Assembly (NCBI RefSeq): GCF_000213575.1
Contig: NZ_GL892005.1
Coordinates: forward strand, 405,995 to 469,994
Source of the DNA: Dysgonomonas mossii DSM 22836
Lineage (GTDB): Bacteria > Bacteroidota > Bacteroidia > Bacteroidales > Dysgonomonadaceae
Reading direction: 5' to 3'
Length of the DNA stretch: 64,000 bases
The notes under the pieces are model-generated. The model was not told the origin of the DNA, searched no databases, and was given only the letters and a program-made list of their open reading frames with translations. Both the position numbers and the translations under genes were made by a program. Positions within the stretch are counted from its first letter, which is position 1. Each line of letters begins with the position of its first letter. Below, one piece after another: positions 30,472 to 53,886 of this stretch.

Positions 30472-30512
30472 GGTATTCTGTTATGTGGTTGTTTTTCAAT
30501 TTAATATAATGA

Positions 30513-30561
30513 AAAGGTGACAAAAGTGACACTTTTTTTAAAGATTCTGTTTGTCACCTTT
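30513..30561. repeat. Nested TGTCAC palindrome between GH3 and GH43
   Basis: AAAGGTGACA (30513-30522) and TGTCACCTTT (30552-30561) are perfect inverted copies. The interior contains AAAGTGACACTTT, itself palindromic. Similar words occur at 3597-3678. It may end or attenuate the GH3 transcript, or bind a regulator. Confidence 0.5.
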
Positions 30562-30594
30562 CCATTTCTGTCAGATTCCTATGTAAAGATAATT

Positions 30595-32796: not shown

Positions 32797-32818
32797 GTTT
32801 TCTGTAATTGTTTAATAT

Positions 32819-35185
32819 TTATTTGTTTAACGTAATTTCAATTTTATTTCCCTTATTCAAGGTCAGATATAATTTATCACCTTCTACTTTGTATTTGCTT
32901 GTTCCCGCTATCAAAGGCTTTCCGCTAGGTAGTTTTATTACAAACTGATTGTTTGTAGTTGCCGTGATATGTATATTTTGGATCTTGTTATCTTTCCATT
33001 TAAAGGAGATTTCTGCACCCCCTCTTACTTTCATGCCTCTTACTTCTCCGTCTTTCCACCCGTCGGGTATAGCCGGCAGTAGTTCTATAAAACCTTCGTG
33101 GCTTTGTAGAAGCATTTCCCCTATTCCGGCTGATCCGCCAAAGTTGCCATCTATTTGCATCGGAGGGTGTGCACTGAACAGATTTGGATACGTACCCCAG
33201 TTATTTTCAGCGGGTTTCAACAGGTCGCCAATCAGTTTGTAAGCTTTATTTCCGTCTTTGAGCCGTGCCCAGAAATTAATTTTCCATGCCATAGACCATC
33301 CTGTAGACTGATCACCTCGTCTTGTCAAGGTGACTTTAGCAGCTTCCATCAGTTCGGGAGTCTTTTCATACGTAAGCTCATTTCCCGGATGAAGTCCATA
33401 CAGTTGCGATACATGGCGATGGTGGATTTCACTCTCTTCATAATCTTCGAGCCATTCCATTACCTGTCCGTATTTCCCGATTGAAGTAGGTGCTAGTCGT
33501 TCTTTCTTCGCTGAAATATCTTTGATCCATTCATTATCTACTTCTAATATTTTTGCGGCATTCTCCACGTTTGTAAATAATTCGCGAATAATCTGATTGT
33601 CCATCGCTGAGCCCGCACAGATACTTACCACGTCTCCCGATGGTGTTATGTAAGCGTTCTCAGGAGAAGTAGTCGGGGCAGTAACCAAATAGCCGTTGTT
33701 AGGGTCTTCGATCAGCATATCTTCAAAGAATAAAGCAGCACTTTTCATTGTAGGATATACCGATTTTAGATATTCTTTGTCCTGAGTATAAAGGTAGTGT
33801 TCCCAGAGATGCTGGCACATCCATGCGCCGGCCGTGTTGGTTGCTCCCCATGAAGGATGTTCTCCGGGAGACGTGAAGCCCCATACATTACTCAAAATAT
33901 GAACTACCCATCCACGGCTGTTATAATATATTTTTGCTGTTTTTTCTCCCGGCTCTACCAGTGATTTCACAAACTCGATAGTCGGTTTGTGGAGCTCAGA
34001 AAGATTAAACATTTCAGCTCCCCAAAGATTCATCTGTAGATTGATATTCAAATGATAATCAGCATTCCAAGGAGTGTTTATTTGTGGAGCCCACAACCCT
34101 TGCAGGTTAGGAGGGAGGCCTCCCTCTCGGGTAGACGATATCAATAGATAACGACCATACTGCATATATAAGGCAGCCAGATTATAATCCGTTTTGTCTG
34201 TTGCAAATGCTTCCAGTCGCTTATCTATTGCTAGTGAGGAATTCTTATTTTTTTCTAAAGTCAGGTCTACACGATTAAATAGAGCCTGATATTTTGCAAT
34301 ATGTTTCTTTTTTAGTTTCTCATAATTTACTCCGGCATTGTTCAATAGGTCAGAAGCTACTTTTTCATGATTCGTACCGTTGTAGTTGGTCGCTAATGAA
34401 ACATATAGGGTGACTTCATTTGCATTCTTTATGTCAATTACTTTGTCTGTCGCAGATAATTTCCCTCCTTTGTTTATCACCTTCACCATTCCCAAATATT
34501 TCATTCCCGAATGGTTTTCTCCTGCTTCCAATTGTCCGAAGATATAAAGTGTATTGCCGCTGGCATAAGTTTTAAAATTCTCATCACGTTGCAATGATAT
34601 TTTTAGGCTTAATGCTTCCGACTTACTTGCCGTATATTTTACCAATCCGATGTCGTTCGAGAAAGACGTAAAGTATTCTCGTTTGTATTCTACATCATTT
34701 TTTGAGAAAGAAACAGTAGATAGTGCATTATTCATGTCCAGCACTCTTTTATACTGTGTCGCTTCAGATTTGTCAGGGTATAGAAAGTCTACATACAGAT
34801 TCGCAAAAATCTGAAATTTACCGTATTCCAAACCTGCACTTCCTTTGCCTTTGCAGGTGAAAGTTTTGTACATTAACTCCTGAGCCTCTTTATTCTTTTT
34901 CTCAAACAGAAGTCTTCTTATTTCACCCAGATATTTATAAGCTTCCGGATTATCAGCATCCTGTTTGTTGCCCGACCATAGAGAAATTTCATTTAGTACG
35001 ACTCGTTCCCTTTCTACTCCACCCCAAGGCATCATCCCTATTCTGCCATTTCCCAGTGGGATCGATTCTTCCCAAATAGATGACGGCTTATCGAAATAGT
35101 ATTGCCATTCGTTCTGTTTATCTTGAGCAGAAAGTTCACTCCATGAAAAAATAAATAATAATAAAAATAGTTTGTAGAACTTCAT
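32819..35185 (-). CDS. GH95 alpha-L-fucosidase / alpha-L-galactosidase
   Basis: A 788-residue enzyme with signal peptide (MKFYKLFLLLFIFSWSELSA). The N-terminal beta domain opens with the GH95 hallmark WEESIPLGNGRIGMMPWGGV and LNEISLWSG. The helical (alpha/alpha)6 barrel contains NADYHLNINLQMNLWGAE around residues 372-389, holding asparagines that position the catalytic water in the family, and SPGEHPSWGATNTAGAWMCQ. The family cleaves terminal alpha-1,2-L-fucose or L-galactose. In a xyloglucan locus the substrate would be the fucosylated (or L-galactosylated) galactose of side chain F. It starts 3 bases after the GH31 stop, so translation is likely coupled. Confidence 0.93.
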   Translation of the reverse strand: MKFYKLFLLLFIFSWSELSAQDKQNEWQYYFDKPSSIWEESIPLGNGRIGMMPWGGVERERVVLNEISLWSGNKQDADNPEAYKYLGEIRRLLFEKKNKEAQELMYKTFTCKGKGSAGLEYGKFQIFANLYVDFLYPDKSEATQYKRVLDMNNALSTVSFSKNDVEYKREYFTSFSNDIGLVKYTASKSEALSLKISLQRDENFKTYASGNTLYIFGQLEAGENHSGMKYLGMVKVINKGGKLSATDKVIDIKNANEVTLYVSLATNYNGTNHEKVASDLLNNAGVNYEKLKKKHIAKYQALFNRVDLTLEKNKNSSLAIDKRLEAFATDKTDYNLAALYMQYGRYLLISSTREGGLPPNLQGLWAPQINTPWNADYHLNINLQMNLWGAEMFNLSELHKPTIEFVKSLVEPGEKTAKIYYNSRGWVVHILSNVWGFTSPGEHPSWGATNTAGAWMCQHLWEHYLYTQDKEYLKSVYPTMKSAALFFEDMLIEDPNNGYLVTAPTTSPENAYITPSGDVVSICAGSAMDNQIIRELFTNVENAAKILEVDNEWIKDISAKKERLAPTSIGKYGQVMEWLEDYEESEIHHRHVSQLYGLHPGNELTYEKTPELMEAAKVTLTRRGDQSTGWSMAWKINFWARLKDGNKAYKLIGDLLKPAENNWGTYPNLFSAHPPMQIDGNFGGSAGIGEMLLQSHEGFIELLPAIPDGWKDGEVRGMKVRGGAEISFKWKDNKIQNIHITATTNNQFVIKLPSGKPLIAGTSKYKVEGDKLYLTLNKGNKIEITLNK

Positions 35186-35188
35186 TTT

Positions 35189-37543
35189 TTACTTGTTTAT
35201 CCTATAATGTACACCTTGTATTTGTCCTTTTTCCAACTGATAATTATTACCCGATTTTGTAAGAATAATATCTGTTAGTTTATTGTCTGACGGAAGACAA
35301 ACGAATCCTGTCGCTTTTTCTTTTTCTCCATAAACTTTGAGTTCTATATCAGACCAATTGATTTTATCTGTAGATTGAGCAAGTTGGGCGTGCGGGATAA
35401 CAGCACCCTCGCGCACCAGAATGATAGCAGGGATTTTGCCGGCTTCTATCACATTCCATCCTTGTTGATATGTTTTTCCACTTTGATAATCGATCCAGTT
35501 GCCTTTGGGTAGATATACATTTCGCTCCGTTCCGGCTTCCATCATCGGAGCTACTAATATGTCAGCCCCGAAGAGATACTCATCTTCTACAAACCATGCT
35601 CCGGCATCGTCAGGATATTCCACAAACAAAGCCCGAACCATAGGCAACCCTTTTTCGGTACATAATTTAGCCTGTGCATAAATATACGGCATTAATTTGT
35701 ATTTCATTTCGGCTGATTCACGAAAAGCTTTTACAAAGTTATCGTTATATAGCCACGGCTCTTTTGGTGGTGCTCCATGTGCACGACTATGCGATGTCAA
35801 AAATCCGAAAGGTAACCAACGGCGGTACAGATTTTCGGGAGCAGCAACCACAAATCCTCCTATGTCGTGACTCCAGAAAGAGAAGCCGCTTAGCCCGAAT
35901 GAGAGGCCTCCACGTAATGTGGCATCCATACCGATGTCTGTATTGGCAGCATCGCCACCCCAATGGAGAGGATAGCGTTGGCTTCCTGCCCAAGCACTGC
36001 GGGCCCATATAATATTTTCATTGTTGACTTCTTTGGTGATGTCCGCAACAGCTTTGTTGTAACGCAGCGGATACAGATTGTGCTCGTACCATCCACCATG
36101 CCCTGACGCATAAAACCCTTCCATTGGTGCGGCTTCTCCGAAGTCTACTTTTATTGCACCAACTCCCATTTTTAGTAACCCTGCAAGTTTGTCCTGATAC
36201 CATTTTACAGTCTCAAGGTTGGAAAAGTCTAAAACTGCATCTTCATAAGGCATTTCTCCTTTTGAGTTTTTTACATGCAGGTTTTTCTCTATTATTTCAT
36301 TGAAAAATTTATTTTTAGGTGTAAAATAAGTCAGCTGCCACAGCGAGATGTGGAATCCATCTTTCTTCAGATCATCAATCATTTTCTGAGGATTGGAAAA
36401 TCTCGATGGTGCAAATTTATAGTCGCATTGCCAGTCTGTTTCGAACCATCCTGTATCGAAATGAATAACATCTGACGGTATCTTGTAAGAACGTAGCTTG
36501 GCTGCTACATCATAACCCTCGCTTTGCTCAAAGTAAGTGATGCGGCTCATCCATGTGCCAAACGACCAAAGTGGAGGCATAGATGGCTTCCCTACTATTT
36601 CGGTATATTCATTCAGTATGTCTTTGGGTTCGCCGATAAATATGAATAGGTCGAGTGCTTCGTCTCCCATGAACAGCTTGTTTGCACCTACATAGGTATT
36701 TCCAAAATCGCAAGTGATAGGGGCTGATGTGTGCATGAACATCCCGTAGCCACGATTACTCATAAAGAAAGGAACAGGCTTGTACATCTGATCTGTTTCG
36801 GGGCCTTGCGGGTCGGTAACAAATAGATTCACTTTTTGTCCTCTTTTGTCTAATTTGGTTACAGATTCGCCACAACCAAATATTTTTTCACCCGGAGATA
36901 ATGAAAATACTGGGTTTACTGCCCGGCTATTATCCACTCCCCGTTTGATGAAGTTGAAAGGGATAACCTTTACTTGCGAAGAATCATTGTCGCACCAACG
37001 CCATGTATCGGTCAAACGTTTTCCTTTTTCGTCTCTCAATGTGATACGGAATGGATTTTCTTCAATTTCTATACTTCCGTAATTGCTTTTATAGGTATGG
37101 GTATTTCCTGTTTTAGAATATTTCCATGAACTGTCTTTCCCCGGTTCTTTGACTAACATAGGAGAGTCGAAGGGTTTAGGCTGAACGGGTGTTGTCAACA
37201 TTCTTATTCGCAAAGTGCGTGGTGTAACAAAATCTACCGAGAAGTCTAATTCAGGGTTTTGTTCATAGGCTTCACCCGGAAAATCTAACATCTTTAAATC
37301 TTGTGGCAAGATTGTATTAACATTAAAAGCCTGACGAGTGTACAATGATGTGCGTTTCCACGAGATTTTCCCTTTGCCGTCTGCTCCGTTAAATGAAGCC
37401 ACCTTGTCGGCAAAGAAAAAGGTATTGTGAAAATCTTTAAAGTCGACACTCATGTCAATTGGTTCGCCTAATATGCGTTTTTGTTGAGCCGCAAGCTGCG
37501 TGCTGAGGCAAATGCTGAGGCAAAGAATAATTCGTATTTTCAT
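35189..37543 (-). CDS. GH31 alpha-xylosidase (no PA14)
   Basis: A 784-residue GH31 enzyme with signal peptide (MKIRIILCLSICLSTQLAAQ). The nucleophile is Asp467 in GVGAIKVDFGEAAPMEGFY, and the KVDFGE form is typical of alpha-xylosidases such as YicI. Other features are DVIHFDTGWFETDW in the active-site strand and YPLHWGGDAANT with the acid/base Asp. There is no PA14 insert, unlike the GH31 at 44158. It would remove terminal xylose from the non-reducing end of xyloglucan oligosaccharides. It follows the first GH3 by 14 bases and precedes GH95 by 3. Confidence 0.95.
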   Translation of the reverse strand: MKIRIILCLSICLSTQLAAQQKRILGEPIDMSVDFKDFHNTFFFADKVASFNGADGKGKISWKRTSLYTRQAFNVNTILPQDLKMLDFPGEAYEQNPELDFSVDFVTPRTLRIRMLTTPVQPKPFDSPMLVKEPGKDSSWKYSKTGNTHTYKSNYGSIEIEENPFRITLRDEKGKRLTDTWRWCDNDSSQVKVIPFNFIKRGVDNSRAVNPVFSLSPGEKIFGCGESVTKLDKRGQKVNLFVTDPQGPETDQMYKPVPFFMSNRGYGMFMHTSAPITCDFGNTYVGANKLFMGDEALDLFIFIGEPKDILNEYTEIVGKPSMPPLWSFGTWMSRITYFEQSEGYDVAAKLRSYKIPSDVIHFDTGWFETDWQCDYKFAPSRFSNPQKMIDDLKKDGFHISLWQLTYFTPKNKFFNEIIEKNLHVKNSKGEMPYEDAVLDFSNLETVKWYQDKLAGLLKMGVGAIKVDFGEAAPMEGFYASGHGGWYEHNLYPLRYNKAVADITKEVNNENIIWARSAWAGSQRYPLHWGGDAANTDIGMDATLRGGLSFGLSGFSFWSHDIGGFVVAAPENLYRRWLPFGFLTSHSRAHGAPPKEPWLYNDNFVKAFRESAEMKYKLMPYIYAQAKLCTEKGLPMVRALFVEYPDDAGAWFVEDEYLFGADILVAPMMEAGTERNVYLPKGNWIDYQSGKTYQQGWNVIEAGKIPAIILVREGAVIPHAQLAQSTDKINWSDIELKVYGEKEKATGFVCLPSDNKLTDIILTKSGNNYQLEKGQIQGVHYRINK

Positions 37544-37557
37544 AGGTCTTAGATTGG

Positions 37558-39741
37558 TTATTTTAGTTGTATTTCTTTTGTCAGCCTGATATCTTCCGAA
37601 GATGATCCTATCAAGATATTCACTGTTTCGGGTTCTATTACAAACGAGTCTTTATCGTTGTCCCAATAAGCAAGATCATCGGCACTTAAGGTGAATTCAA
37701 AAGTCTTACTTTCTCCTTTTTTGATACTAATACGATCGAAGCCTTTTAGTTGCTTGATTGGTCGTACTACTTTTGACTGAGGAAACGATACATATAGCTG
37801 AGCTACTTCTTCTCCATCCATATCTCCTGTGTTTTTTACATTAACAGATACTTTCAGATTTTTTCCTTTAGAAAGAGCAGAAGAAGATAAGGCCATATCG
37901 GAATAGGTGAAATTTGTGTAGCTAAGACCATATCCGAAAGGGTATAGCGGCTTTTCTTTTGCATACATGTATGTGCGACCATTTCGTATATCATAATCCA
38001 TCATCGGAGGCAGGTCGGCAATGGATTTTACCCAAGTCTGATTTGTTCTGCCTGCCGGATTATAGTTACCGAAGATTACGTCAGCCAGACCATTTCCGAG
38101 CTCTTGACTGTTGTTTGTAATATGTAGTATTGCCGGTATATTCTCTTGCGACCAGTTTATAGCAAAAGGGAAACTGCTGACCAGTACCATTACGGTATTA
38201 GGATTTGCTTTGTGTACAATCTTTACTAAGTCTTCTTGTTCGAGAGATAAAGCTTTGCGATCTACAGCCTCACGTCCGTCGCTCGGTACGGGTGAGTATT
38301 TCCATTTAGGGTCGGTGCCATATACATGATTTCCGACGCATACAATAGCTATATCTGCTTTCTGTGCGGCAAGATAGGCTTTGTCGATTTCATTCGAAGA
38401 CTCGTATATAACTTCTACATTGTTACCGACTGCATTTTTTATACCTTGTAGTATGGAAACTGTATAAGGCGGAGTACCGCTATACCAGTCGAGTAATACT
38501 TCGTTGGCTCGTGGTCCAATAACTGCAATCCTCTTGATGTTTCCCTTATTTAAAGGTAATAGTTTTTTCTCATTTTTTAGTAGCACAACAGATTTTGCAG
38601 TAACCAGACGTACAAAATCTTGTATCTCTTTATTTCTCCATACCGAAACTGTATCGGTAACTCCTATATGAGCATAAGGTAGTTTTGTCTGATCTCCATC
38701 TAGTAGGCCTAGCTTTAATGCGATATAGAAATTTCCCCGTATGGCTTTGTCTATCTCTGCTTCTGTCAGCATCCCTTTCTCTAAAGCTTGGTATATATAT
38801 GGGCGAAAATTATCGAGGAATTGTCCTACACCGGCTTTTACGATGGCAGCACTACCTTCTGTGTGGGTTGGGAATGTCTTATGTGCTTTTATCAACAGAT
38901 CGAGAGCTCCTCCATCGGTACAGATTATTCCTTTAAAGTTCCAGTCTTTACGGATCTTTTTCAAAATAGGATGGATTGTCATCGGTATTTCATTCCAGCT
39001 ATTGTAAGCTGCCATGAAGGCTTGAGAGCCACCTTTTTCTATACCCTTGCGAAAGGGGTATGAGTAATACTCGTGAAACAGTCGATTGTCAAAATTAGAG
39101 GATGTAGAATCTCTCCCGTCTTCATTACTGTTGGCTAGGAAATGTTTCATTAAGGATGCCGATTTCCAGTATCGGGGATTTTCTCCTTGTAGTCCTTTTA
39201 TAAAGGCTACGGCCATCTCCGATACTAGAAAAGGGTCTTCTCCAAAACTCTCCTCGGTGCGTCCCCAACGTGGGTCCCGGGCTAAGTCAGCATTGGGGGC
39301 ACGCATTACCAAACCTCCTTTTGTATATCTTTCGTTTTGTGTGTAATATCTTATTTCTGTGGCTTCTATGTCAGCTACTTTTTTTATCAGTTCTGTATCC
39401 CATGTCTCACCTAGCCCGTAGGCCTGAGGGAACGTAGTTGTAGGATATACATCGGGTACGCGCTGATAATTTACCATTTTGAAACCGCCCCAGTTACCCG
39501 GGCCTCCCAGAGCCATCCCGTGCAATCCTTCAGAATGTCCTGTGTTTCGAATTCCTAAGCGAGGAACGCCTAAGTTTGTGGATAGTGCATTTATTTTCTC
39601 GTCAATTGTCATTATAGACAGTAGATTGTCGAGGCGTTTTTCGTCGCTTAAACTTGTGTTTTGGAACGGATAGACATATTGTGCAAATACCCCGGTATTC
39701 GCAAACAAAATAGATAGCAGAATAAATAATAATTTTTTCAT
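37558..39741 (-). CDS. GH3 beta-glucosidase / beta-xylosidase, first gene of operon
   Basis: About 727 residues from the ATG at 39741 (MKKLLFILLSILFANTGVFA, a signal peptide); a 9-codon longer reading starts inside the leader. The nucleophile is Asp276 in FKGIICTDGGALDLL. The early segments NTGHSEGLHGMALG and FPQAYGLGETWD and the RAPNADLARDPRWGR motif place it in the GH3 group of xylosidase-like enzymes, and YPFGYGLSYTNF leads into the fibronectin-like C-terminal domain. It is the first gene behind the HTCS-type promoter at 39766 and so likely the most strongly read gene of the GH3-GH31-GH95-GH3 operon. Confidence 0.95.
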   Translation of the reverse strand: MKKLLFILLSILFANTGVFAQYVYPFQNTSLSDEKRLDNLLSIMTIDEKINALSTNLGVPRLGIRNTGHSEGLHGMALGGPGNWGGFKMVNYQRVPDVYPTTTFPQAYGLGETWDTELIKKVADIEATEIRYYTQNERYTKGGLVMRAPNADLARDPRWGRTEESFGEDPFLVSEMAVAFIKGLQGENPRYWKSASLMKHFLANSNEDGRDSTSSNFDNRLFHEYYSYPFRKGIEKGGSQAFMAAYNSWNEIPMTIHPILKKIRKDWNFKGIICTDGGALDLLIKAHKTFPTHTEGSAAIVKAGVGQFLDNFRPYIYQALEKGMLTEAEIDKAIRGNFYIALKLGLLDGDQTKLPYAHIGVTDTVSVWRNKEIQDFVRLVTAKSVVLLKNEKKLLPLNKGNIKRIAVIGPRANEVLLDWYSGTPPYTVSILQGIKNAVGNNVEVIYESSNEIDKAYLAAQKADIAIVCVGNHVYGTDPKWKYSPVPSDGREAVDRKALSLEQEDLVKIVHKANPNTVMVLVSSFPFAINWSQENIPAILHITNNSQELGNGLADVIFGNYNPAGRTNQTWVKSIADLPPMMDYDIRNGRTYMYAKEKPLYPFGYGLSYTNFTYSDMALSSSALSKGKNLKVSVNVKNTGDMDGEEVAQLYVSFPQSKVVRPIKQLKGFDRISIKKGESKTFEFTLSADDLAYWDNDKDSFVIEPETVNILIGSSSEDIRLTKEIQLK

Positions 39742-39765: not shown

Positions 39766-39830
39766 CAAAAATATTACATCTTTAGCTTTTAATCTATTCT
39801 GTATGTTTCATAAAGGGGGGTAATATGTTT
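39766..39830 (-). promoter_or_regulatory. PUL promoter and likely HTCS operator, minus operon
   Basis: On the minus strand: AAACAT at 39830-39825, AAACAT again at 39808-39803 (22 bases apart), then 29 bases, then the -7 box TATTTTTG at 39773-39766. The first gene starts 24 bases after the box. The AAACAT-29-TATTTTTG arrangement is identical in the divergent promoter at 44087-44129. Confidence 0.65.
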
Positions 39831-39836
39831 ACTAGA

Positions 39837-42800
39837 TCATTTCGATACGTTTTTTTTATACTCATTGGGGGTTACACCGAATTCCTCTTTAAAATACTTG
39901 CGGAAATATTTGGGGTCATTAAATCCTACCTGAAAGGCGATTTCATTGACAAACATCTGGCTTTTTTCCAATAAATCAGCTGCTCGTTTCAAACGAATAA
40001 AGCGGATAAACTCAGAAGGGGTCTTGTCTGTCAGGGCCAATATTTTTTTGTAAAAATAGACTCGACTCATGCCCATCTCTTTGCAAAGGTCTTCTACAAG
40101 AAATTCAGGATTTCCAATATTTTCTTCCACAATAGAGATTGTTTTTTGCACAAACTTTTCGTCCATAGATGTTATCTCTATTTCACTCAGGGAGATATCT
40201 ATTTTCTTCTTGAAGTTGCTATGTACCTTTTTCTGCCTCTCGATGATCTTCGCTATTTTTAGTTTCAGCATGTCAATGTTGAAAGGCTTGGAGATATAAT
40301 CGTCTGCTCCTGCCTCAATACCCGAATATTTGCTCTCTTCCGACGATTTGGCCGTAAGTAATATGATCGGAATATGCGAAGTCCGTATATCTCCTTTTAC
40401 ATGCCTGCAAAACTCATATCCATCCATCTTTGGCATCATAACATCGCATAGTATAATATCCGGTAGTTGATCGAGCACAATGCTGTATCCTTCTTCTCCA
40501 TCGTTTGCTATGACAGTGCGATAATCGTCTATAAACAAGCTGGTGATAAATTCACAAAAGTCTTCATTGTCGTCCACTATTAGTAGAAGCGGAAGATGTG
40601 CGCGTTGTGCCGACTTTAAATCGAGCTCGGCTCCCTCTTTTATTTCGCTAATAGAAATATCTCCCGAATGTATAATGTCTTGGTTGCTTAGTTCCTTATA
40701 TGTCGAATTTTGTATAGGTAGTAATATTGTAAAGGTAGAACCCTTTCCTTCTGTACTTTCTACTTGTATTTCGCCTCCATGTAATTTTACATATTCACTG
40801 GCCAGATGGAGTCCTACTCCGGTTCCAGATTGATTGTTTTTTTCTACTTTTTCTATTCTGAAGAAGCGTTCAAATATTTTCTCGAGATATTCTTTCTCTA
40901 TGCCAACGCCTGTATCAGAAACTTTCAGGCATAACTGTTTGGTTGGTGTATCTGTTTGCAGCAGTTCGGAAATGCCAATGCTGACATCTATCTGCCCGTC
41001 TTCTGTATATTTGAATGCATTGGAAATGAGATTGGATATGATTTTATGCATCTTTTCTTTATCAAACTCCATTTGCAGTTCTTGCAGATATGTTGTGAAT
41101 GTGAGTTTTATTGATTTTTCTCCTGCCAATGCCGAGAATGACTGACAGATTTCTTTTGTAAACTCTATAATATTCCCTCGTGAAATGTTCAGAGTCATCT
41201 TATTTTGGTCAAACTTCCTGAAATCAAGTATTTCGTTCACCATGTTCAACAAGTTTTTTGCATTCTTGTGCATGATGCTCATCGTAGCTTTTTGCTCTTC
41301 CGATACAGATGATTTCATAAGTTTCTCCAGCGGTGTAAGAATAAGCGTGAGCGGAGTCTTGAATTCATGGCTTATATTGGTAAAGAACTTGAATTTCAAT
41401 TCGTCTACTTCATGTATTTTCTGAGCTTCCAGTATTTTTTGAGCCTGTTCGTATTCTTCTTTTTGTTTATTCAACTTATATTTTATGAAAAACCTTAAAA
41501 CCGTGATGATGATGAGTATGTATATAATAGTTGCCCACCATGATAGCCAAAATGGTGGTTTTACTACGATTGTCAAAACAATAGGTTCACTGCTCCATAC
41601 ATTATCGTCATTGCTGGCATAGACAATAAGTTTGTATGTGCCGGCATTAAGGTTGGAGTATGATGCCGAGCCGATTCCGGTGCTTGTTTCAGTCCATTTG
41701 TTATCGAGCCCTTCCAACATGTATTTATACCGATTCTTCTCGGAATGGATGTAATTTAGGGATGAAAATTGTATTGTAAAATTAGTTTCGCCGTAATGTA
41801 AAATAATCTCATCAAGGTCTGTTATTGATTTTTCGAGAATAACACGTCCATTGTATTTTGTATTCGGTTTAATCACCTGATTGGTAATCAGAAGATCAGT
41901 GAAATGCGGTTTAGGTACATTTTTATTAAATACTATTTTTCTTGGATCGAAAGATGTGTATCCTTTAGTACTGCCTATGTAAATAATTCCGTCTTTATCT
42001 TTAAATATAGCATTCGTATTAAATACCGAACCCGGCAGTCCGTCGTTAACATCGAATGATGCGATTGTATACGTCAGTTGCTGATTGTCATACTTACAGT
42101 AAAAGCATACCAATCCGTTTCGGGTTCCTGCCCATATATTACCATCATTATCTTCTATAAGCGATACAACTTCATCACTCGGAAGTCCTTCAGTATTTGT
42201 TATATATTCAAATCGTTGTTTCGCAGGATAATATACATTGATACCTTTGTCTGTAGCAATCCATAAAAGACCTCTTGAATCTACAATCTGATTGTTTATA
42301 ACAATGCTGGTGAGGGAATCGAGGAATGTATTGTTGGGGAAATATCTTCTTACCTCTTTTTTACTTTCGTCTAATACGCATATTCCTCTGTCGGTACTTA
42401 GAAATATATTATTTTGAGTATCTACAAACATAGATACAATATAATTGGATAGAAGATCTTTACTGTTGCTCATATTGTGATGAGTAAAGGTATCCCTTGC
42501 AGAATTTAACTGATCTATACCTCCCCCAAGAGTTGCGATCCATAGATTCTGGTCGTTGTCTTCGGTAAGACTATATACACTTTTACTCGAAAGAGAGTTT
42601 GAGTTTGTCTCATTCAATTGAAATTTCTTGAAACTTTTACCATCAAAGGCGTTCAGCCCTCCCATGAAAGTTCCAATCCAAAGTGTTTGTCTGTGATCTT
42701 CGTATATTGATGTGATAATATCAGACGAGATACTTCCCGCATCGTTAGGATTGTTTCTAAAACGTTCTACTTTCTCCGTGCTTTGATGGTATTTGATAAG

Positions 42801-43958
42801 GCCGGTTCCATTTGTCCCTATCCACAGATTATCGCTCTTGTCTTTGTATAAACTATTGCAGTCGAATATCTCTGCATTTTTGTTAAACATATAAAAGAGG
42901 GGTGATTTCCTGAATTTGAAAAGGTTTGGATGATAATAAGATACACCACTTTTGTATGTGCCTACCCATACTGTTCCGTTTGGCTCACCATAGAAACTGA
43001 TAATAGAATTCTGACTGATAGAGTTGTGATTGTATATATCATTTTTAAGAACCGTTATCTTTTGATTTTTTTTATCCAGAATACTTATACCACCATGATC
43101 TGTTCCTATCCATATCAGGCCGTTAATATCCTGTCCTACACATCTGACAAAGCTACTCGATAATGCAACCTTACTGTTGGTGTCCAGTAAAGTCCATTGT
43201 CCTTTTTTTGTATTTAGATATACCACGCCTTTATCCGCTATACTCGGATAAACCCAAATATCGTTATCAGAATCTATAAATAAGGATTTCTGTATTGTAG
43301 AATTCTGGTTGTTGTCTTTAAAGAACGTATTTCGCATATCCACTTTGTTTGTCTGCATGTTTACACGTTCCAAAAGTCCGTCGTTGTGAAGAACCCAAAT
43401 GTAGTTATCCTTTATTTTTATATCGGAGATATCAGACAGAGCCAGATCATTTGTATTCTTCGATTGCTTGTAGATTGTTATTTTGTTACTAGTTGCATCG
43501 TATTTGTGAATACCCTTTCCCGGATATGAAATGTATAAATCTTTCTTCTTGTCTATTTCTATAATAGCTGGTGCGGGTGGTAACCCTATATCGCTTAGCA
43601 GTGAATCTATATTGTTTATAAAAGATTCCGATTTCCAGTCATATAGCATATAAATACCTGCACTCGACTGCAACCATAGGTTACCGTTTATATCTTCTTG
43701 TATTCCTGTAAAACGATCGTAAGATGGACTTTTGCTGTCATTCTTTATGTTCTTGTATGTTTTAAAGTTTATCCCGTCGTACCTGTTGAGCCCCATATTT
43801 GTTCCAAACCACATAAAACCACGGCTGTCTTTTAAGATTGCTTCCACCTGATTGTTTGATAAGCCGTTTGTATTATTCAAATGAGAGAATTCAAATTGCT
43901 GGGCTTTTATGATAAAAGATAATAAGAGGAATAGAAGGGTGTATAATGGCTTTTTCAT
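39837..43958 (-). CDS. Hybrid two-component system sensor-regulator of the PUL
   Basis: About 1373 residues from the ATG at 43958, chosen because it opens a signal peptide (MKKPLYTLLFLLLSFIIKAQ). Domains: a periplasmic double propeller of repeated GLLWIATDKG-type motifs (about 25-700), a Y_Y_Y domain (about 715-790), one membrane helix (PFWLSWWATIIYILIIITVL, about 800-825), histidine kinase with His in FFTNISHEFKTPL near 861, ATPase motifs NLISNAFKY, DTGVGIEKEY and GTGVGLHLA, a receiver with VDDNED and phospho-acceptor Asp in ILCDVMMPKMDG near 1170, and a C-terminal AraC-type helix-turn-helix. HTCS proteins sense oligosaccharides in the periplasm and activate the neighbouring PUL. It probably senses xyloglucan oligosaccharides and acts on the promoters at 39766 and 44044. 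Confidence 0.96.
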   Translation of the reverse strand: MKKPLYTLLFLLLSFIIKAQQFEFSHLNNTNGLSNNQVEAILKDSRGFMWFGTNMGLNRYDGINFKTYKNIKNDSKSPSYDRFTGIQEDINGNLWLQSSAGIYMLYDWKSESFINNIDSLLSDIGLPPAPAIIEIDKKKDLYISYPGKGIHKYDATSNKITIYKQSKNTNDLALSDISDIKIKDNYIWVLHNDGLLERVNMQTNKVDMRNTFFKDNNQNSTIQKSLFIDSDNDIWVYPSIADKGVVYLNTKKGQWTLLDTNSKVALSSSFVRCVGQDINGLIWIGTDHGGISILDKKNQKITVLKNDIYNHNSISQNSIISFYGEPNGTVWVGTYKSGVSYYHPNLFKFRKSPLFYMFNKNAEIFDCNSLYKDKSDNLWIGTNGTGLIKYHQSTEKVERFRNNPNDAGSISSDIITSIYEDHRQTLWIGTFMGGLNAFDGKSFKKFQLNETNSNSLSSKSVYSLTEDNDQNLWIATLGGGIDQLNSARDTFTHHNMSNSKDLLSNYIVSMFVDTQNNIFLSTDRGICVLDESKKEVRRYFPNNTFLDSLTSIVINNQIVDSRGLLWIATDKGINVYYPAKQRFEYITNTEGLPSDEVVSLIEDNDGNIWAGTRNGLVCFYCKYDNQQLTYTIASFDVNDGLPGSVFNTNAIFKDKDGIIYIGSTKGYTSFDPRKIVFNKNVPKPHFTDLLITNQVIKPNTKYNGRVILEKSITDLDEIILHYGETNFTIQFSSLNYIHSEKNRYKYMLEGLDNKWTETSTGIGSASYSNLNAGTYKLIVYASNDDNVWSSEPIVLTIVVKPPFWLSWWATIIYILIIITVLRFFIKYKLNKQKEEYEQAQKILEAQKIHEVDELKFKFFTNISHEFKTPLTLILTPLEKLMKSSVSEEQKATMSIMHKNAKNLLNMVNEILDFRKFDQNKMTLNISRGNIIEFTKEICQSFSALAGEKSIKLTFTTYLQELQMEFDKEKMHKIISNLISNAFKYTEDGQIDVSIGISELLQTDTPTKQLCLKVSDTGVGIEKEYLEKIFERFFRIEKVEKNNQSGTGVGLHLASEYVKLHGGEIQVESTEGKGSTFTILLPIQNSTYKELSNQDIIHSGDISISEIKEGAELDLKSAQRAHLPLLLIVDDNEDFCEFITSLFIDDYRTVIANDGEEGYSIVLDQLPDIILCDVMMPKMDGYEFCRHVKGDIRTSHIPIILLTAKSSEESKYSGIEAGADDYISKPFNIDMLKLKIAKIIERQKKVHSNFKKKIDISLSEIEITSMDEKFVQKTISIVEENIGNPEFLVEDLCKEMGMSRVYFYKKILALTDKTPSEFIRFIRLKRAADLLEKSQMFVNEIAFQVGFNDPKYFRKYFKEEFGVTPNEYKKNVSK

Positions 43959-44043
43959 TGCTAGGTATTCAGGTTCGATGGATACAAATTTATATAAATA
44001 AAGCGATTTCTGATGTTTTGTTAGCATTTTAATCCCTAAATGG

Positions 44044-44129
44044 AAACATTTAAACCCCTGCAGAGAATCTTTAACGGTTGCATTAAAAACATTTAAGAAT
44101 GCCTCTCTGCATATTCAGGGATATTTTTG
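44044..44129 (+). promoter_or_regulatory. PUL promoter and likely HTCS operator, plus operon
   Basis: AAACATTTAA occurs twice as a direct repeat (starting 44044 and 44087, 43 bases apart, close to four helical turns). The second copy is followed after 29 bases by the -7 box TATTTTTG (44122-44129), and the GH31 start codon is 28 bases further on. The layout matches the minus-strand promoter. Confidence 0.65.
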
Positions 44130-44157: not shown

Positions 44158-46992
44158 ATGAAAAAAAATCAACTGCTTTTGGTCAGTTTGTTGTCGATGG
44201 CTCTATTCATCGGCTGTAAAAGCGGACCATATCAGAGAACGAGTGACGGAATAATTGTAAACCTGAAAACGGATAATGCTTTAGCTACAAAAAACATCAG
44301 ATTGCAAGTTGTCAATGATGATGTAATCCATGTTTCGGCTACTCCCGGCTATAAGTTTTCTGACAAAAAAAGTCTTATCACCATATATGATAAAACACAA
44401 ACAACAGGATGGGATGCTAAAGAGGAAAACGGAAATGTTGTTCTCAAAACAGCTTCTACCATTGCTACAGTATCTCTGACTACAGGAGAGGTTACCTTCT
44501 CGGATATAAATGGTAATGTACTTCTCGCTGAGAATAAAGGAGGAGGTAAATCGTTTTCTGATATCGAAGTTGAAGGGACAAAAGCATATACTATGCAGCA
44601 AGTGTTCGAATCTCCGGCCGATGAGGCTTTCTATGGACTTGGACAACATCAGGCTGATGAGTTTAACTACAAGGGAAAGAATGAGGTTCTTTTCCAATAT
44701 AATACAAAAGTGTCTGTTCCGTTTGTTTTATCCAGCAAAAACTATGGAATACTTTGGGATAACTACTCACTGACTAAGTTCGGTGATTCTCGCGATTATC
44801 TCGACTTAGATCAATTTAAGCTATATGACAAAACAGGAAAAGAAGGCGGGCTGACCGCTACTTATATGGTAAATGCCGATCCAAATAAAGTTTTTGTAGA
44901 AAGAGCAGAATCACAGATTGATTACGAAAACCTGGAAACAGTAAAAAAGTTTCCTCAAGACTTTCCGTTCTTTAATTCTCGCATCACATGGGAAGGAGAT
45001 ATAGAAGCAAAGGAAACAGGCAAATATCATTTTATACTTTATTATGCAGGTTATACAACCATATCATTGGATAATGAGGTAATAGTGCCTGAAAGATGGC
45101 GTACAGCATGGAATCCGAATAGCTATAAGTTCACGGTGGATATGAAAGCCGGAGAAAAACGTAAAATCAAACTCGATTGGAAACCTGATGGTGGTATTTC
45201 ATATATAGGACTTAAAGCTTTGAGCCCGAAATCTCAGGAAGAACAAAATAAGTTGGCTCTTTGGTCAGAGATGGGCGACCAGATCGACTATTATTTTATT
45301 CGTGGAAACAATGCAGATGATGTAATTAAAGGGTATAGGGCTGTTACAGGAAAGTCGCAAATTATGCCTAAATGGGCAATGGGATTCTGGCAAAGCCGTG
45401 AAAGATATAAAACTCAGGAAGAGTTGCTTGGCGTTGTAGATGAATATCGCAAGAGAAATATACCATTAGATAACATCATATTAGATTGGTCGTATTGGCC
45501 GAAGGATGCATGGGGAAGCCATGATTTTGATACCGAGCGTTTCCCTGATGCAAAAGGGATGATGGATAGCGTACATGCAAAAGATGCGCATATTATGATT
45601 TCTGTATGGCCTAAGTTTTATTATACAACAGATAATTACAAGGCTTTTGACGAAAAAGGATGGATGTTTAACCGTGCTGTGAAAGATAGTATCCGCGATT
45701 GGATCAGCCCGGGTTATATTGGAGGATTTTATGATGCTTACAGCGAAGGTGCTCGCAAACTATTTTGGGATCAGTTGAACGAAAAGCTATATTCTAAAGG
45801 TATTGATGCTTGGTGGATGGATGCTTCCGAGCCGGATATTTTGTCAAATGCAAGTATGCAGTACCGTAAAGAGCTAATGACTCCTACAGCTCTAGGCCCA
45901 TCAGTTGAGTACTTTAACGCTTACGCCCTTGTTAATGCACAGGGTATTTATGAAGGTCAGCGTTCTACTAACCCTAACAACCGTGTCTTTTTGCTTACCC
46001 GTTCTGGTTTTGCCGGATTGCAACGTTATTCTACAGCTACATGGAGTGGCGATATCGGTACTCGTTGGGAAGATATGAAAGCTCAGATTTCAGCCGGACT
46101 TAATTTTGCTATGTCGGGTATTCCTTATTGGACAATGGATATCGGTGGTTTCTGTGTCGAAAAACGTTATGAAAATGCGAAAGAAGGTTCAGAAGATATG
46201 AAAGAATGGAGAGAGCTCAATGCTCGTTGGTTCCAGTTTGGTGCATTCTGTCCGCTATTCCGTAGTCATGGACAATATCCTTATCGTGAGATCTACAATA
46301 TTGCTCCTGAAGGTCATCCTGCATATAATAGCATGGTTCATTATACCAAGCTTCGTTACCAGATGATGCCATACATCTATTCATTGGCGGGAATGACATA
46401 TTTCAATGATTATACTATTATGCGTGCTTTGGTAATGGATTTCGGAAAAGATGCTGCTACCCATAATATAAGCGATCAATATATGTTTGGACCGAACCTG
46501 ATGGTTTGTCCGGTATACCAATACAAAGCAACATCCCGTGATGTATATTTCCCTGCCGGTACAAATTGGTACAACTATGATACAGGAGAATATGTTACCG
46601 GAGGAAAAAGCATAAAAGTATCTGCACCCTACGAACGTATGCCTCTCTTTGTACAAGAAGGTTCTATTTTGCCTATGGGAAATGATATTCAGACTACCAA
46701 AGAAGCTCAAACAGATCTCACCATAAAAGTATATACAGGTAAAAACGGAGAGTTTACTTTATACGAAGACGAAGGGGTAAACTACAACTATGAAAATGGG
46801 GCATATTCGACTATTAAGTTTAGTTATGATGAAGCCTCTCTGCAGCTTACTGTCGACGATGTTAAAGGTGAATATACAGGTATGGCTAAAGATAGAATAT
46901 TTAAAGTAGAATGGATTACCAAAGGAAAGAAAAACACAATATCTGAAGTAAAATACTCAGGAAAGAAGCTCTCTGTAAAAAGGGCAGAATAA
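44158..46992 (+). CDS. GH31 alpha-xylosidase with PA14 insert (lipoprotein)
   Basis: A 944-residue lipoprotein: the signal peptide MKKNQLLLVSLLSMALFIGC ends at Cys20, followed by KSGPYQR, which lacks an acidic export run, so a periplasm-facing anchor is expected. The N-terminal galactose-mutarotase-like domain is interrupted by a PA14 module at about 270-355 (RITWEGDIEAKETGKYHFIL, DNEVIVPERWR). The catalytic barrel has the nucleophile Asp555 in DAWWMDASEPD. This layout matches xyloglucan-specific alpha-xylosidases such as those of Cellvibrio and Bacteroides ovatus, where PA14 helps bind long oligosaccharides. It opens the plus operon ahead of susC. Confidence 0.95.
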   Translation: MKKNQLLLVSLLSMALFIGCKSGPYQRTSDGIIVNLKTDNALATKNIRLQVVNDDVIHVSATPGYKFSDKKSLITIYDKTQTTGWDAKEENGNVVLKTASTIATVSLTTGEVTFSDINGNVLLAENKGGGKSFSDIEVEGTKAYTMQQVFESPADEAFYGLGQHQADEFNYKGKNEVLFQYNTKVSVPFVLSSKNYGILWDNYSLTKFGDSRDYLDLDQFKLYDKTGKEGGLTATYMVNADPNKVFVERAESQIDYENLETVKKFPQDFPFFNSRITWEGDIEAKETGKYHFILYYAGYTTISLDNEVIVPERWRTAWNPNSYKFTVDMKAGEKRKIKLDWKPDGGISYIGLKALSPKSQEEQNKLALWSEMGDQIDYYFIRGNNADDVIKGYRAVTGKSQIMPKWAMGFWQSRERYKTQEELLGVVDEYRKRNIPLDNIILDWSYWPKDAWGSHDFDTERFPDAKGMMDSVHAKDAHIMISVWPKFYYTTDNYKAFDEKGWMFNRAVKDSIRDWISPGYIGGFYDAYSEGARKLFWDQLNEKLYSKGIDAWWMDASEPDILSNASMQYRKELMTPTALGPSVEYFNAYALVNAQGIYEGQRSTNPNNRVFLLTRSGFAGLQRYSTATWSGDIGTRWEDMKAQISAGLNFAMSGIPYWTMDIGGFCVEKRYENAKEGSEDMKEWRELNARWFQFGAFCPLFRSHGQYPYREIYNIAPEGHPAYNSMVHYTKLRYQMMPYIYSLAGMTYFNDYTIMRALVMDFGKDAATHNISDQYMFGPNLMVCPVYQYKATSRDVYFPAGTNWYNYDTGEYVTGGKSIKVSAPYERMPLFVQEGSILPMGNDIQTTKEAQTDLTIKVYTGKNGEFTLYEDEGVNYNYENGAYSTIKFSYDEASLQLTVDDVKGEYTGMAKDRIFKVEWITKGKKNTISEVKYSGKKLSVKRAE

Positions 46993-47056
46993 AGCAGAAT
47001 TATTGTTATTACATAAATCACTTTTAGTTCAGATTCACTAATACTATTAAAAAACC

Positions 47057-50000
47057 ATGAATGAGAAAATGACTAGATTTTTTCGGCAAACAAGTTGCAT
47101 TTGTTTGCGGAGGGTATATCTGATGCTTATTATCAGCTTACTCTCAGTTGCTGGGCTTTATGCACAGTCAGTACGTGGAATATCGGGAACCGTAACCTCA
47201 GAAGGTGAACCTCTTATTGGAGCCTCTGTTGTAGAAAAAGGTACAACAAATGGTACCTTGACTGATGTTGACGGAAAGTTTACCTTAAGTGTGAAAGAAA
47301 ATGCAACGATCGAAGTATCCTATATTGGATTCACTTCTAAAACGTTTGCAGTTGGGCAACAAACAGTATTCAACGTAGAGTTGAAAGAAGAAGCCAATGT
47401 GTTGAATGAAGTTGTAGCCATAGGTTATGGTGTTCAGAAGAAAAAACTGAATACAGGCGCTACGTTGCAAGTAAAAGGCGATGAGGTAGCTAAATTAAAC
47501 ACTACCAATCCTCTTCAGGCTCTTCAGGGGCAAGCTCCGGGAGTACAGATTTCTTCTACGTCCGGACAACCGGGTGCAGATATGAAAGTTACTATACGTG
47601 GACTTGGTACAGTAGGAAATTCAGGGCCGCTTTATATTATCGATGGAATTGAAGGAGATATCAGTGTGTTGAATGCCGCAGATATTCAATCTATCGATGT
47701 TTTGAAAGATGCTGCATCTGCTGCCATATATGGTGCTCAGGCTGCAAATGGTGTTATTTTAGTAACTACAAAACAAGGATCGAAAGGAAAAGGACAAGTA
47801 TCTTTTGATGCATATTATGGGGTGCAGAATGTTGCACGTAAAGCCAAAATGCTCAACGCAAATGAGTATATGGCAATAATGAATGAGCAAGCATTAAATT
47901 CGGGATCGGCTTTATTTGACTTTGATTCGATGGGTACTCTTGCCAATACAAACTGGATTAACCAAATGTTTAAAGATGATGCTAAAACTGAAAACTATTC
48001 GTTGAATGTGAATGGTGGTTCAGAGGCTTCTGTTTATGCACTCTCATTGAACTATACATCTCAGGAAGGTATCGTTGGAGGTAAGGATGTCTCTAATTAT
48101 GAGCGTTATGGTTTCCGTATCAATACAGAGCACAAGTTGTATAAGGAGGTGTTGAAGGTAGGACAACATTTAAACTTTAACTATATCAAGAATAGAGGTA
48201 TAAGTGTTGGAAACCAATATAATAATACTTTACGTGGAGCATTTACTACATCTCCTTTGTCGCCTGTATATAGCGATAATAATATCTATGACAGTCCGTA
48301 TAATGATACGAGCAACTCGCCATGGTATAATGGTGATGGTAATCCATACGGTTTAATGATGACTAACTCCAACAATAAGAATGATTCTCAAAGATTGATG
48401 GCTGATATATATGCAGAATTAGAGCCAATAAAAAACCTTAAGCTAAAATCAGTATTCGGTATTAATTATTATGCATCCGAATATCGTAGCTTCGAGCCAT
48501 TCTATCAGTTTTCTGTATATACTTATAATAAAAATAATACAACTACATTACAGAATATGAGTAAAGGTCATACCCTGACTTGGACTAATACCGCAGGTTA
48601 TGATTTTACTTTGGCCGATGATCATGCCATCAATGCTTTAGTCGGTATGGAGGCAACACGTTATCAGGGAACATTCCTTTCCGGATCTAACTGGAATCTA
48701 TTATCTCAGTTCAATGATTTCTCACATGCATACTTAGATAATACAACAGGACAGGCCCATTTGGATAGTGATGGCAATATTGTAGAAACAAGAAGTGTAG
48801 GTGGTAGACCTGAACACGATTATCGTCGAGTGTCTTATTTTGGACGTGTTGGCTACAACTATAAAGAGAAGTACATGTTCAATGCAACTTTGCGAGCTGA
48901 TGGTTCATCCAAGTTTGCAAAAGGTAACAGATGGGGATACTTCCCTTCGTTCTCTGCGGGATGGGTGATTACAAATGAAGACTTTATGCAAAGTATTGTA
49001 GAGAGCAGAACTCTCGATTTTCTGAAACTTCGTTTAAGTTGGGGACAAGTTGGTAACCAAAATATAGATGATGATCAATATCTTGCACCAATAAATACTT
49101 CCACTGGTTATACAAGTAGCGATCCCGCTGCATATTATAACTTCGGAACAAACAAAACAAACACTGCGGGAGCTTATCCAAGCCGTTTGTCTAACGAAAG
49201 TGTTAAGTGGGAGACTTCAGAACAGCTCAATATTGGGTTTGATGCCTATATGCTAAGAAATAGATTAGGAATCAATGTTGATTTTTACACAAAGAAAACA
49301 AAAGATTGGCTGGTTGTAGCTCCTATATTAGCTACTGCGGGAGCCGGAGCTCCATATATAAATGGTGGTGATGTGAAAAATACAGGTATTGAACTAGGTT
49401 TAACATGGAGAGACAATATTGGCCAAGTAAACTATAATATAGGCGTAAACGGATCTTACAACAAGAATAAAGTGGGTAATATCCCAACAGATGATGGTAT
49501 AATTCATGGTCTGACAGGAATGCTTTATGATAACTCAGAGGAGTTTTACAGAGCTCAAAATGGTTATGCAATTGGTTATTTTTGGGGTTATAAAACTGCC
49601 GGGTTATTCCAAAGTGAGGAAGATATCGAGGCTTGGAAAGCTGCAGGTAATGGTATTCTACAGGCTGACGTAAAACCGGGAGATGTTAAGTACGTTGATC
49701 TCGATAAAAATGGAAAAATAGACGCTACAGACAAAACCGATCTAGGAAATGGTATGCCTGATTTCTCTTTTGGATTTAATATCGGTTTCGAATATAAAGG
49801 ATTTGATTTTAACCTGAATGCAAATGGTGTAATGGGCAATAAGATTGTTCAATCGTACCGTAATCATACCAATAAACAGGCCAACTATACAACTGCAATC
49901 CTTAATCGTTGGACAGGTGAAGGCACATCAAACAAAATACCCCGTGTAACAGAGACAAATATAAACTGGCAATTCTCTGATTTATATCTGCAAGATGGTG

Positions 50001-50236
50001 ATTTCTTACGTATAAGCAATATAAGTATTGGTTATGATTTTGCGAAACTAATCAACCTGAAATGTATCAGCCAGTGTCGTCTGTATGCATCAGTGCAAAA
50101 TGCATTCACATTTACTAAATATGATGGAATGGATCCGGAGATCGGTTATGGTACATCAGGCTGGGTGTCAGGAATAGACTTAGGTTATTATCCTCGCCCG
50201 AGGACTTATTTATTCGGTGTGAACCTTAAATTTTAA
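47057..50236 (+). CDS. SusC-type TonB-dependent oligosaccharide transporter
   Basis: A 1059-residue outer-membrane protein. The signal segment (RVYLMLIISLLSVAGLYAQ) is followed by a carboxypeptidase-regulatory-like domain (ISGTVTSEGEPLIGASVVEK to about residue 110), the plug with NPLQALQGQAPGVQISS, DMKVTIRGLGTVGNSGPLYI and LKDAASAAIYGAQAANGVI, and a 22-stranded barrel ending in FGVNLKF. SusC proteins import oligosaccharides through a lid formed by SusD. It lies 65 bases after the GH31 gene with no promoter box between them, and 21 bases before susD. The likely cargo is xyloglucan oligosaccharide. Confidence 0.97.
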   Translation: MNEKMTRFFRQTSCICLRRVYLMLIISLLSVAGLYAQSVRGISGTVTSEGEPLIGASVVEKGTTNGTLTDVDGKFTLSVKENATIEVSYIGFTSKTFAVGQQTVFNVELKEEANVLNEVVAIGYGVQKKKLNTGATLQVKGDEVAKLNTTNPLQALQGQAPGVQISSTSGQPGADMKVTIRGLGTVGNSGPLYIIDGIEGDISVLNAADIQSIDVLKDAASAAIYGAQAANGVILVTTKQGSKGKGQVSFDAYYGVQNVARKAKMLNANEYMAIMNEQALNSGSALFDFDSMGTLANTNWINQMFKDDAKTENYSLNVNGGSEASVYALSLNYTSQEGIVGGKDVSNYERYGFRINTEHKLYKEVLKVGQHLNFNYIKNRGISVGNQYNNTLRGAFTTSPLSPVYSDNNIYDSPYNDTSNSPWYNGDGNPYGLMMTNSNNKNDSQRLMADIYAELEPIKNLKLKSVFGINYYASEYRSFEPFYQFSVYTYNKNNTTTLQNMSKGHTLTWTNTAGYDFTLADDHAINALVGMEATRYQGTFLSGSNWNLLSQFNDFSHAYLDNTTGQAHLDSDGNIVETRSVGGRPEHDYRRVSYFGRVGYNYKEKYMFNATLRADGSSKFAKGNRWGYFPSFSAGWVITNEDFMQSIVESRTLDFLKLRLSWGQVGNQNIDDDQYLAPINTSTGYTSSDPAAYYNFGTNKTNTAGAYPSRLSNESVKWETSEQLNIGFDAYMLRNRLGINVDFYTKKTKDWLVVAPILATAGAGAPYINGGDVKNTGIELGLTWRDNIGQVNYNIGVNGSYNKNKVGNIPTDDGIIHGLTGMLYDNSEEFYRAQNGYAIGYFWGYKTAGLFQSEEDIEAWKAAGNGILQADVKPGDVKYVDLDKNGKIDATDKTDLGNGMPDFSFGFNIGFEYKGFDFNLNANGVMGNKIVQSYRNHTNKQANYTTAILNRWTGEGTSNKIPRVTETNINWQFSDLYLQDGDFLRISNISIGYDFAKLINLKCISQCRLYASVQNAFTFTKYDGMDPEIGYGTSGWVSGIDLGYYPRPRTYLFGVNLKF

Positions 50237-50257
50237 CCATTAAACGAGATATAAACT

Positions 50258-51874: not shown

Positions 51875-51893
51875 CAAACAAAAACTAATAATT

Positions 51894-53810: not shown

Positions 53811-53840
53811 CTAGTCTCTTTTGTTTAAGGATAGTAACCA

Positions 53841-53870
53841 ATGAAAGGGTTTTATTAAAAACCCTTTCAT
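53841..53870 (+). terminator. Strong hairpin between binding protein and GH5
   Basis: ATGAAAGGGTTTT and AAAACCCTTTCAT pair almost completely over a short loop. No T-run follows (ATTATATCAA), so partial termination or 3'-end protection is as likely as full termination. Confidence 0.6.
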
Positions 53871-53886
53871 ATTATATCAACATAGA

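Follow-up and report, generated by a model that had tools for sequence, protein, structure and literature searches.

The window analysed here, a stretch of 64,000 nucleotides from Dysgonomonas mossii DSM 22836, contains a PUL that spans positions 28879-58215 by Pfam annotation. Between its two arms lies an HTCS gene (39837..43958, minus strand) whose product carries a sensor propeller, Y_Y_Y, HisKA, HATPase and receiver domains and an AraC-type HTH. A downstream promoter on the minus strand is followed by genes for GH3, GH31, GH95, GH3 and GH43 proteins (28879..39741), and a divergent promoter on the plus strand is followed by genes for a GH31 protein, a TonB-dependent receptor (SusC-like), SusD, a 654-aa protein, a GH5+BACON protein and a GH2 protein (44158..58215); both sets were assigned with Pfam, and we infer that each is a single transcript. 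The enzyme set resembles that of the xyloglucan utilisation locus of B. ovatus (GH5, GH31, GH3, GH95, GH43 and GH2 together with SusCD and an HTCS), all of whose components are present here as Pfam families, and from this gene content the substrate of the PUL would be of the xyloglucan type. The 654-aa protein (51846-53810, plus strand) had zero Pfam hits, and its position in the PUL is the usual place of a surface glycan-binding protein gene. Beyond the PUL, at 58486-63847 on the plus strand, Pfam identifies a NUDIX/NrtR-type winged-helix regulator, an FGGY kinase, a xylose-isomerase-like TIM barrel protein and a sugar transporter, genes that probably serve xylose catabolism and adjoin a PUL that would release xylose.

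Each of the two outward promoters flanking the HTCS gene has AAACAT exactly 29 bases before the same -7 box, as the original prediction had stated. The pattern AAACAT-N29-TATTTTTG matches twice in the window, at 39808..39766 (minus strand) and 44087..44129 (plus strand), and none of 100 dinucleotide shuffles reaches two matches (mean 0.00, largest 0). Through this composite match the -7 box TATTTTTG was placed at 39766..39773 (minus strand) for the downstream, GH3-GH31-GH95-GH3-GH43 promoter and at 44122..44129 (plus strand) for the divergent, GH31-SusC-SusD promoter, the latter also by its conservation in orthologs. TAnnTTTG is the Bacteroides -7 consensus. A scan for sigma-70-type promoters returned 17 promoter-like sites against 20.4 in shuffles. 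The second AAACAT predicted in the same orientation is likewise present, 22 bp upstream of the proximal copy in the downstream promoter (39830..39825) and 43 bp upstream of it in the divergent promoter (44044..44049). Taken singly the two words occur in the window at chance level, AAACAT 69 times against 71 expected and TATTTTTG 11 times against 7.8 expected. The composite pattern has four matches in the whole 3.95-Mb genome, and inspection by eye showed no PUL gene beside the other two (L001 and L004), which points to some background for the bare pattern. A genome search with it was therefore rejected as an operator finder, two of its four matches not being PUL-like by eye. Looser ACAT patterns gave further stray matches, one (L115) and two (L118, L119), and a loose two-site pattern matched the genome four times in a backwards control versus three times forwards, from which it follows that loose patterns alone prove nothing.

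The spacing in the original prediction holds, but the unit proposed there has to be enlarged, because AAACAT forms just one part of a half-site of ~16 bp, AAACATTTAACCCCCT, that ends in CCCC, and the 22- and 43-bp spacings belong to one grid. Four head-to-tail half-sites occupy slots named by how far ACAT lies upstream of the TA of the -7 box (~98, 76, 55 and 33 bp), with a slot spacing of 22/21/22 bp across 17 orthologs; the 43-bp spacing corresponds to slots -76/-33 and the 22-bp spacing to slots -55/-33. A PWM of box 2, built from 17 non-window orthologs with the scored sequence left out each time, peaks at -22, at +43 and more weakly at +21, apart from shoulders of 1-2 bp, which leads to the four head-to-tail ~16-bp half-sites. 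In the window's divergent promoter (plus strand), half-site 1 (slot -98, TAGCATTTTAATCCCT, 44022..44037) is fair, with 7.3 bits the second best PWM match in the scored stretch, and lies at the -22 peak of the leave-one-out profile. Half-site 2 (slot -76, AAACATTTAAACCCCT, 44044..44059), which contains the upstream AAACAT, is strong, being the best match at 22.6 bits, and is conserved in the ortholog alignment A1 described below. The degenerate half-site 3 (slot -55, GAATCTTTAACGGTTG, 44065..44080) is poor: it corresponds to the +21 peak in A1, the weakest of the three, and in the window itself it falls outside the six best PWM matches and is hardly recognisable. The same slot is well formed in Paludibacter-type loci and in one further locus, L169. 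The proximal half-site 4 (slot -33, AAACATTTAAGAATGC, 44087..44102) has AAACAT without the CCCC part, and its ACAT stands at the same place in 17 of 21 orthologous loci. The downstream promoter (minus strand) has a strong half-site in slot -55 (AAACATATTACCCCCC, 39815..39830), which scores 17.6 and 16.5 bits under two settings, and a proximal one in slot -33 (AAACATACAGAATAGA, 39793..39808), again AAACAT without the CCCC part, whose own PWM score is low (-7.8). The distance of 33 bp from ACAT to the -7 box is thus common to the two promoters of the window.

Orthologs of the HTCS were drawn from 80 HTCS-related loci and from loci of 61 genomes at a cut-off of at least 52% identity. Duplicate removal left 24 loci including the window's own copy, and the 21 test loci are these minus the window copy, the 98%-identical L086 and L025, which has no upstream sequence and is probably the other end of one gene that L095 carries on a second contig. 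The pattern ACAT-43-ACAT-33-TAnnTTTG, on the strand of the divergent gene, occurs in 17 of the 21 loci versus 0.0 expected from shuffles. A GH31 gene adjoins the HTCS in 18 of the 21, so the pattern is found in 17 of 18 such loci, and the eighteenth (L095) has ACAA in the proximal site and spacings of 44/33. The available sequence of the other three misses (L008, L009 and L014) has no GH31 hit next to the HTCS; for L008 it extends only 1 kb upstream. The geometry has therefore been retained in the orthologous loci that the original prediction had named as the place to look for its failure. Two of the misses are MAG loci, L008 labelled Tannerella sp. and L009 labelled Candidatus Azobacteroides sp., whose HTCS is 66% identical and nearly full length; their 5.5 and 16 kb of sequence hold neither a GH31/GH3 hit beside the HTCS nor the operator, and this HTCS is perhaps an orphaned sensor.

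The 17 fitting loci align without gaps over 120 columns (alignment A1). Since these loci are those that fit the pattern, it follows from their selection that ACAT and TAnnTTTG do not vary within A1, and the conservation test consists of the 17/21 count only. Unlike this invariance, the contrast between boxes and spacers in the two clades of the alignment is not by selection. A comparison of the nine Dysgonomonas-family loci with the eight Paludibacter-type loci gives 57, 74, 33 and 56% identity for boxes 1-4 and 78% for the -7 box, against 24% for the spacer of 21 bp that leads up to the -7 box and 26% for the stretch after it; two of the gaps between boxes have 28 and 17% and the third, just before box 4, has 47%. 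Box 2 lies at distances of 83 to 149 from the HTCS start in the different orthologs.

A sequence-only model (R1) was built from the divergent promoters of the 17 orthologs, with the window and L086 left out. It scored 150 of 3873 first-look candidates in the window's own genome, 59 candidates per genome in the set of 61 genomes and 12 per genome in a set of 295 genomes of the order, and because only part of the candidates was scored, further sites can be missed. Among the 150 of 3873 candidates in the window's genome, the divergent site was returned at E 2.2e-19 and the next match at 0.087, and the two-slot downstream promoter went unreported even at E<=10. In the 61 genomes R1 picked up this PUL's downstream promoter too, in three relatives at E 1.9e-9, 4.6e-8 and 6.0e-8 and, weakly, in a fourth at 9.6e-4. 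It also found a second PUL in two genomes: in G017 the matches precede GH3 (5.0e-7, Pfam), GH2-like (8.1e-7, by eye) and, weakly, GH5-like genes (0.011, by eye), and in G018 they precede GH3 (3.6e-6, Pfam) and GH2-like genes (1.1e-4, by eye). Five matches at E 5e-4 to 6e-3 (L172-L176) were discarded; their neighbouring genes look unrelated by eye, and for this reason our counts use only E<=1e-4.

At that threshold, and with 12 candidates per genome scored, the 295 genomes contain 11 places in nine genomes, all 11 of which precede carbohydrate-enzyme-like genes. Two of the 11 are the window itself and G029, a training sequence. The gene behind the site encodes a GH31 protein in these two and in L217, L219, L220 and L222, a GH3 protein in L221 (Pfam), a GH2 protein in L223 (Pfam), and a propeller protein, GH74-like by eye, in L218 (no Pfam hit at the threshold used) and L170 (Sortilin-Vps10); in L169 a GH31-like start was seen by eye at the contig end. 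Eight of the 11 gene calls were made by profile or alignment and three by eye. An HTCS adjoins the site in L217, L218, L222 and L170 and in a weaker match, L171 (by eye). Seven promoters of other PULs were scored for slots. A pair near -98/-76 is present in L164, L165, L169 and L170, with all four slots in L169; L166 has only -77; L167 (G018:C175:35278-35380, the GH3 promoter of the second PUL, 5200-5400) has -88/-66 and -33, its distal pair lying about one turn closer, a shift that suggests tolerance of a full turn; and in L171 two boxes stand 22 bp apart with no -7 box following them. A profile over 25 promoters is descriptive only, as the model supplied 13 of them and the other 12 were chosen for having an anchored site.

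Behind the HTCS, an anchored proximal site lies within 400 bp in 13 of the 23 loci with downstream sequence, the window and L086 included, and is absent from that interval in the other ten (L008, L009, L011, L012, L014, L015, L016, L018, L019 and L028). Among 15 downstream promoters scored, the two-slot design of the window (L085) recurs in L086, L005, L010 and L007. A pair near -98/-76 combined with a proximal ACA(T/C) at -33 or -34 is found in L006, L090, L013, L093, L042, L017 and L025, slots -56/-34 in L020, and boxes at -77 and -55 without a proximal box in L028; in L012 two boxes lie 22 bp apart and TAnnTTTG is missing. In two of the ten loci the GH3 gene starts further from the HTCS, and the site precedes GH3 there: at 0.8 kb in L015, with slots -55/-33, and at 2.7 kb in L011, with slots -97/-75/-33. 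The available sequence of L008, L009, L016, L018 and L019 has neither a GH3 nor a GH95 hit behind the HTCS, and L014, in which GH3 directly follows the HTCS yet no operator was found, is a true miss. The downstream operator is retained where GH95 replaces GH3 behind the HTCS (L006, L007, L090 and L093).

We consider it very probable that the two promoters flanking the HTCS gene are operator-promoters of that HTCS, acting through a four-slot dimer mechanism and a phospho-switch. AraC-type domains have two helix-turn-helices that read two successive major grooves, a mode of reading that fits a half-site in which AAACAT and CCCC are about one turn apart, and one AraC-type domain would hold each ~16-bp half-site (AAACATwTAACCCCC) with both of its helix-turn-helices. 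The co-oriented half-sites would lie on one face of the DNA, since 21-22 bp amounts to two turns and would place the monomers on the same side. An activator in the proximal slots -55/-33 would lie right next to RNA polymerase, since the -33 slot overlaps the place that a -33 element would take, and this position suggests direct help to polymerase. The distal pair -98/-76 would be an auxiliary, stronger dimer site that aids the filling of weak proximal slots; the pairing into -98/-76 and -55/-33 is proposed because those pairs occur as units. The divergent promoter would use -98, -76 and -33 together with the degenerate -55, and the downstream promoter only -55 and -33. On binding of an oligosaccharide by the sensor, which by gene content would be xyloglucan-derived, the HTCS would autophosphorylate and its receiver would free the DNA-binding domain, so that both operons would switch on. 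The araI1-araI2 site of E. coli araBAD consists of two direct 17-bp half-sites 21 bp apart, the inner of which abuts polymerase; it shares with the present operator the paired direct half-sites ~21 bp apart, and the proximal half-site here would likewise lie near polymerase. AraC differs in being a cytoplasmic sugar-binding protein rather than a membrane histidine-kinase hybrid, in looping to a distant site and in having no four-slot array.

Three features that mark an HTCS operator come together at this locus: an adjoining HTCS with sensor, kinase, receiver and AraC-type HTH (Pfam), a direct repeat ~21 bp apart (22 bp in the downstream promoter and 22/21/22 bp in the grid), and conservation before the same genes in related genomes (17/21). 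For the HTCSs of B. thetaiotaomicron, the main-text passages of Ravcheev et al. 2013 (PMC3878776) describe direct repeats whose sites average 21 bp apart, one example being a pair of 16-bp sites separated by a 5-bp spacer. Comparative genomics yielded these motifs for genes in the same locus as the HTCS, and none was predictable for 20 of 36 HTCSs. Because direct repeats of ~21 bp before genes of AraC-type HTCSs are the published motif, the operator kind is already known. What differs is that those passages describe two conserved sites and state no distance to a -7 box, whereas here there are four slots at a fixed distance and two subset designs, in another genus and in a PUL type that the paper does not name ('xyloglucan' occurs 0 times in its main text). 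The site alignments of that study sit in its supplement; in main-text passages from it and from other open-licence PMC papers, neither promoters with three or more HTCS sites nor a constant distance to the -7 box came up. SusR-like regulators share direct repeats before PUL genes, proposed to lie on one DNA face, but the same passages (PMC3878776) give 67 or 77 bp between their sites and a different DNA-binding domain. In the parts of two other papers that bear on binding, regulatory domains of HTCSs bind PUL promoter DNA in gel shifts and an interdomain contact restrains the HTCS DNA-binding domain (PMC11253607), and ChIP-seq places BT1754 and a BT1754/BT0366 chimera on regions at the associated PULs (PMC3404733). 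The proposal in the original prediction of a direct-repeat operator read by the AraC-type domain of the HTCS thus gains support from ortholog conservation, from a model built without the window, from sites before PUL enzyme genes in further families of the order and from the published rule. We regard the feature, judged by sequence comparison, as a good operator prediction of a known kind, to which the four-slot grid and its constancy would be the addition.

An alternative is that only the classical two-site HTCS operator is real, the outer slots being either relics or sites for the divergent promoter of the HTCS gene itself. The two slots of the window's downstream promoter fit this, as do the position of slot 1 toward the HTCS start and the description of just two sites in the main-text passages of Ravcheev et al. 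(PMC3878776). Evidence on the same side comes from 37 other HTCS groups, for which a protein filter kept 71 of 76 loci: direct repeats at lag 21 occur in 26 of 73 flanks versus 9.2 +- 2.6 in shuffles, and lag-21 16-mers in 11 of 70 trimmed flanks versus 1.3 +- 1.1, and lags 42-44 stay at the null level. A general occurrence of arrays beyond two sites among HTCSs is therefore not supported. These flanks also contain more repeats at lags 18 and 24 than shuffles do, perhaps from coding remnants or from HTCS groups with another pitch, and for that reason the lag-21 excess is used only to support the published rule. Against the two-site alternative, slots near -98/-76 occur in the seven downstream promoters named above, which are not divergent from the HTCS, distal slots also precede GH3 in L011 and are present in L164, L165, L169 and L170, and box 1 is better conserved than box 3 (57 versus 33%). 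We consider this alternative improbable, though not negligible.

It is also conceivable that the operator is conserved for another regulator, either a global Crp-like factor or a separate repressor, and not for the adjoining HTCS. The pairing of operator and protein is proposed by comparing sequences, and TTATCA in slots 1 and 3 of the Paludibacter-type loci differs from AAACAT. Unlike the sites of a global regulator, however, the operator has one strong occurrence in the genome (150 of 3873 candidates scored), and at E<=1e-4 it recurs only before PUL-type enzyme genes. It adjoins an HTCS in L217, L218, L222, L170 and the weaker L171 (by eye), is missing upstream of the HTCS in all three loci without a GH31 neighbour, and has a pitch that agrees with the published HTCS rule, so that we find another regulator distinctly unlikely. 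That AT-rich intergenic DNA yields such words by chance and that descent keeps them in relatives might be argued from the chance-level counts of each word, the two further composite matches in the genome, the four backwards versus three forwards matches of the loose pattern and the uninformative, 98%-identical L086 locus, but this reading is already contradicted by 17/21 observed versus 0 expected, by a spacer before the -7 box that keeps its length without similarity (24%) and by a distance from HTCS start to box 2 that varies from 83 to 149, and we give it practically no credence.

If both promoters are indeed operator-promoters of the HTCS between them, the grid would have uses beyond this PUL. 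HTCSs are a major regulator class of Bacteroides glycan loci, yet base-level definition is available for few of their DNA sites; a grid fixed relative to the -7 box would allow operators and start sites to be read from sequence alone, and it ties this HTCS clade to its putative regulon in different families of the order. The compact inducible pair of a two-slot and a four-slot promoter would lend itself to dissecting how a membrane-tethered activator reaches DNA. A universal -7 box distance for all HTCSs was rejected, the distance being 7 to 81 in other groups and 38 in the L201 family. In this second HTCS family, ATGnnAC-type boxes are 20-21 bp apart. L201 and L202, which are 95% identical to each other, have boxes at 75, 96, 116 and 137 and TAnnTTTG at 175; L204 has boxes at 76, 117 and 138 and TAnnTTTG at 176, with three of the four places filled; and L205 has boxes at 77, 98 and 118 and TAnnTTTG at 177, with TGTGATAC at the fourth place by eye. 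The last box lies 38 bp before TAnnTTTG in L201, L202 and L204. We tentatively suggest, as a possibility somewhat short of even, that HTCS promoters beyond this HTCS follow a positional code, with an obligatory proximal dimer at -55/-33, an optional distal one at -98/-76, all on one face, and a slot strength that tunes each PUL promoter.

Two minor features of the window were also seen. A -7-like box, TAAATTTG, precedes the HTCS gene itself at 43985-43992 (minus strand, by eye), and 23617-23690 (minus strand) is an Rfam match to the Bacteroidetes sRNA family FopS (RF04319, 60.9 bits, gathering 56).
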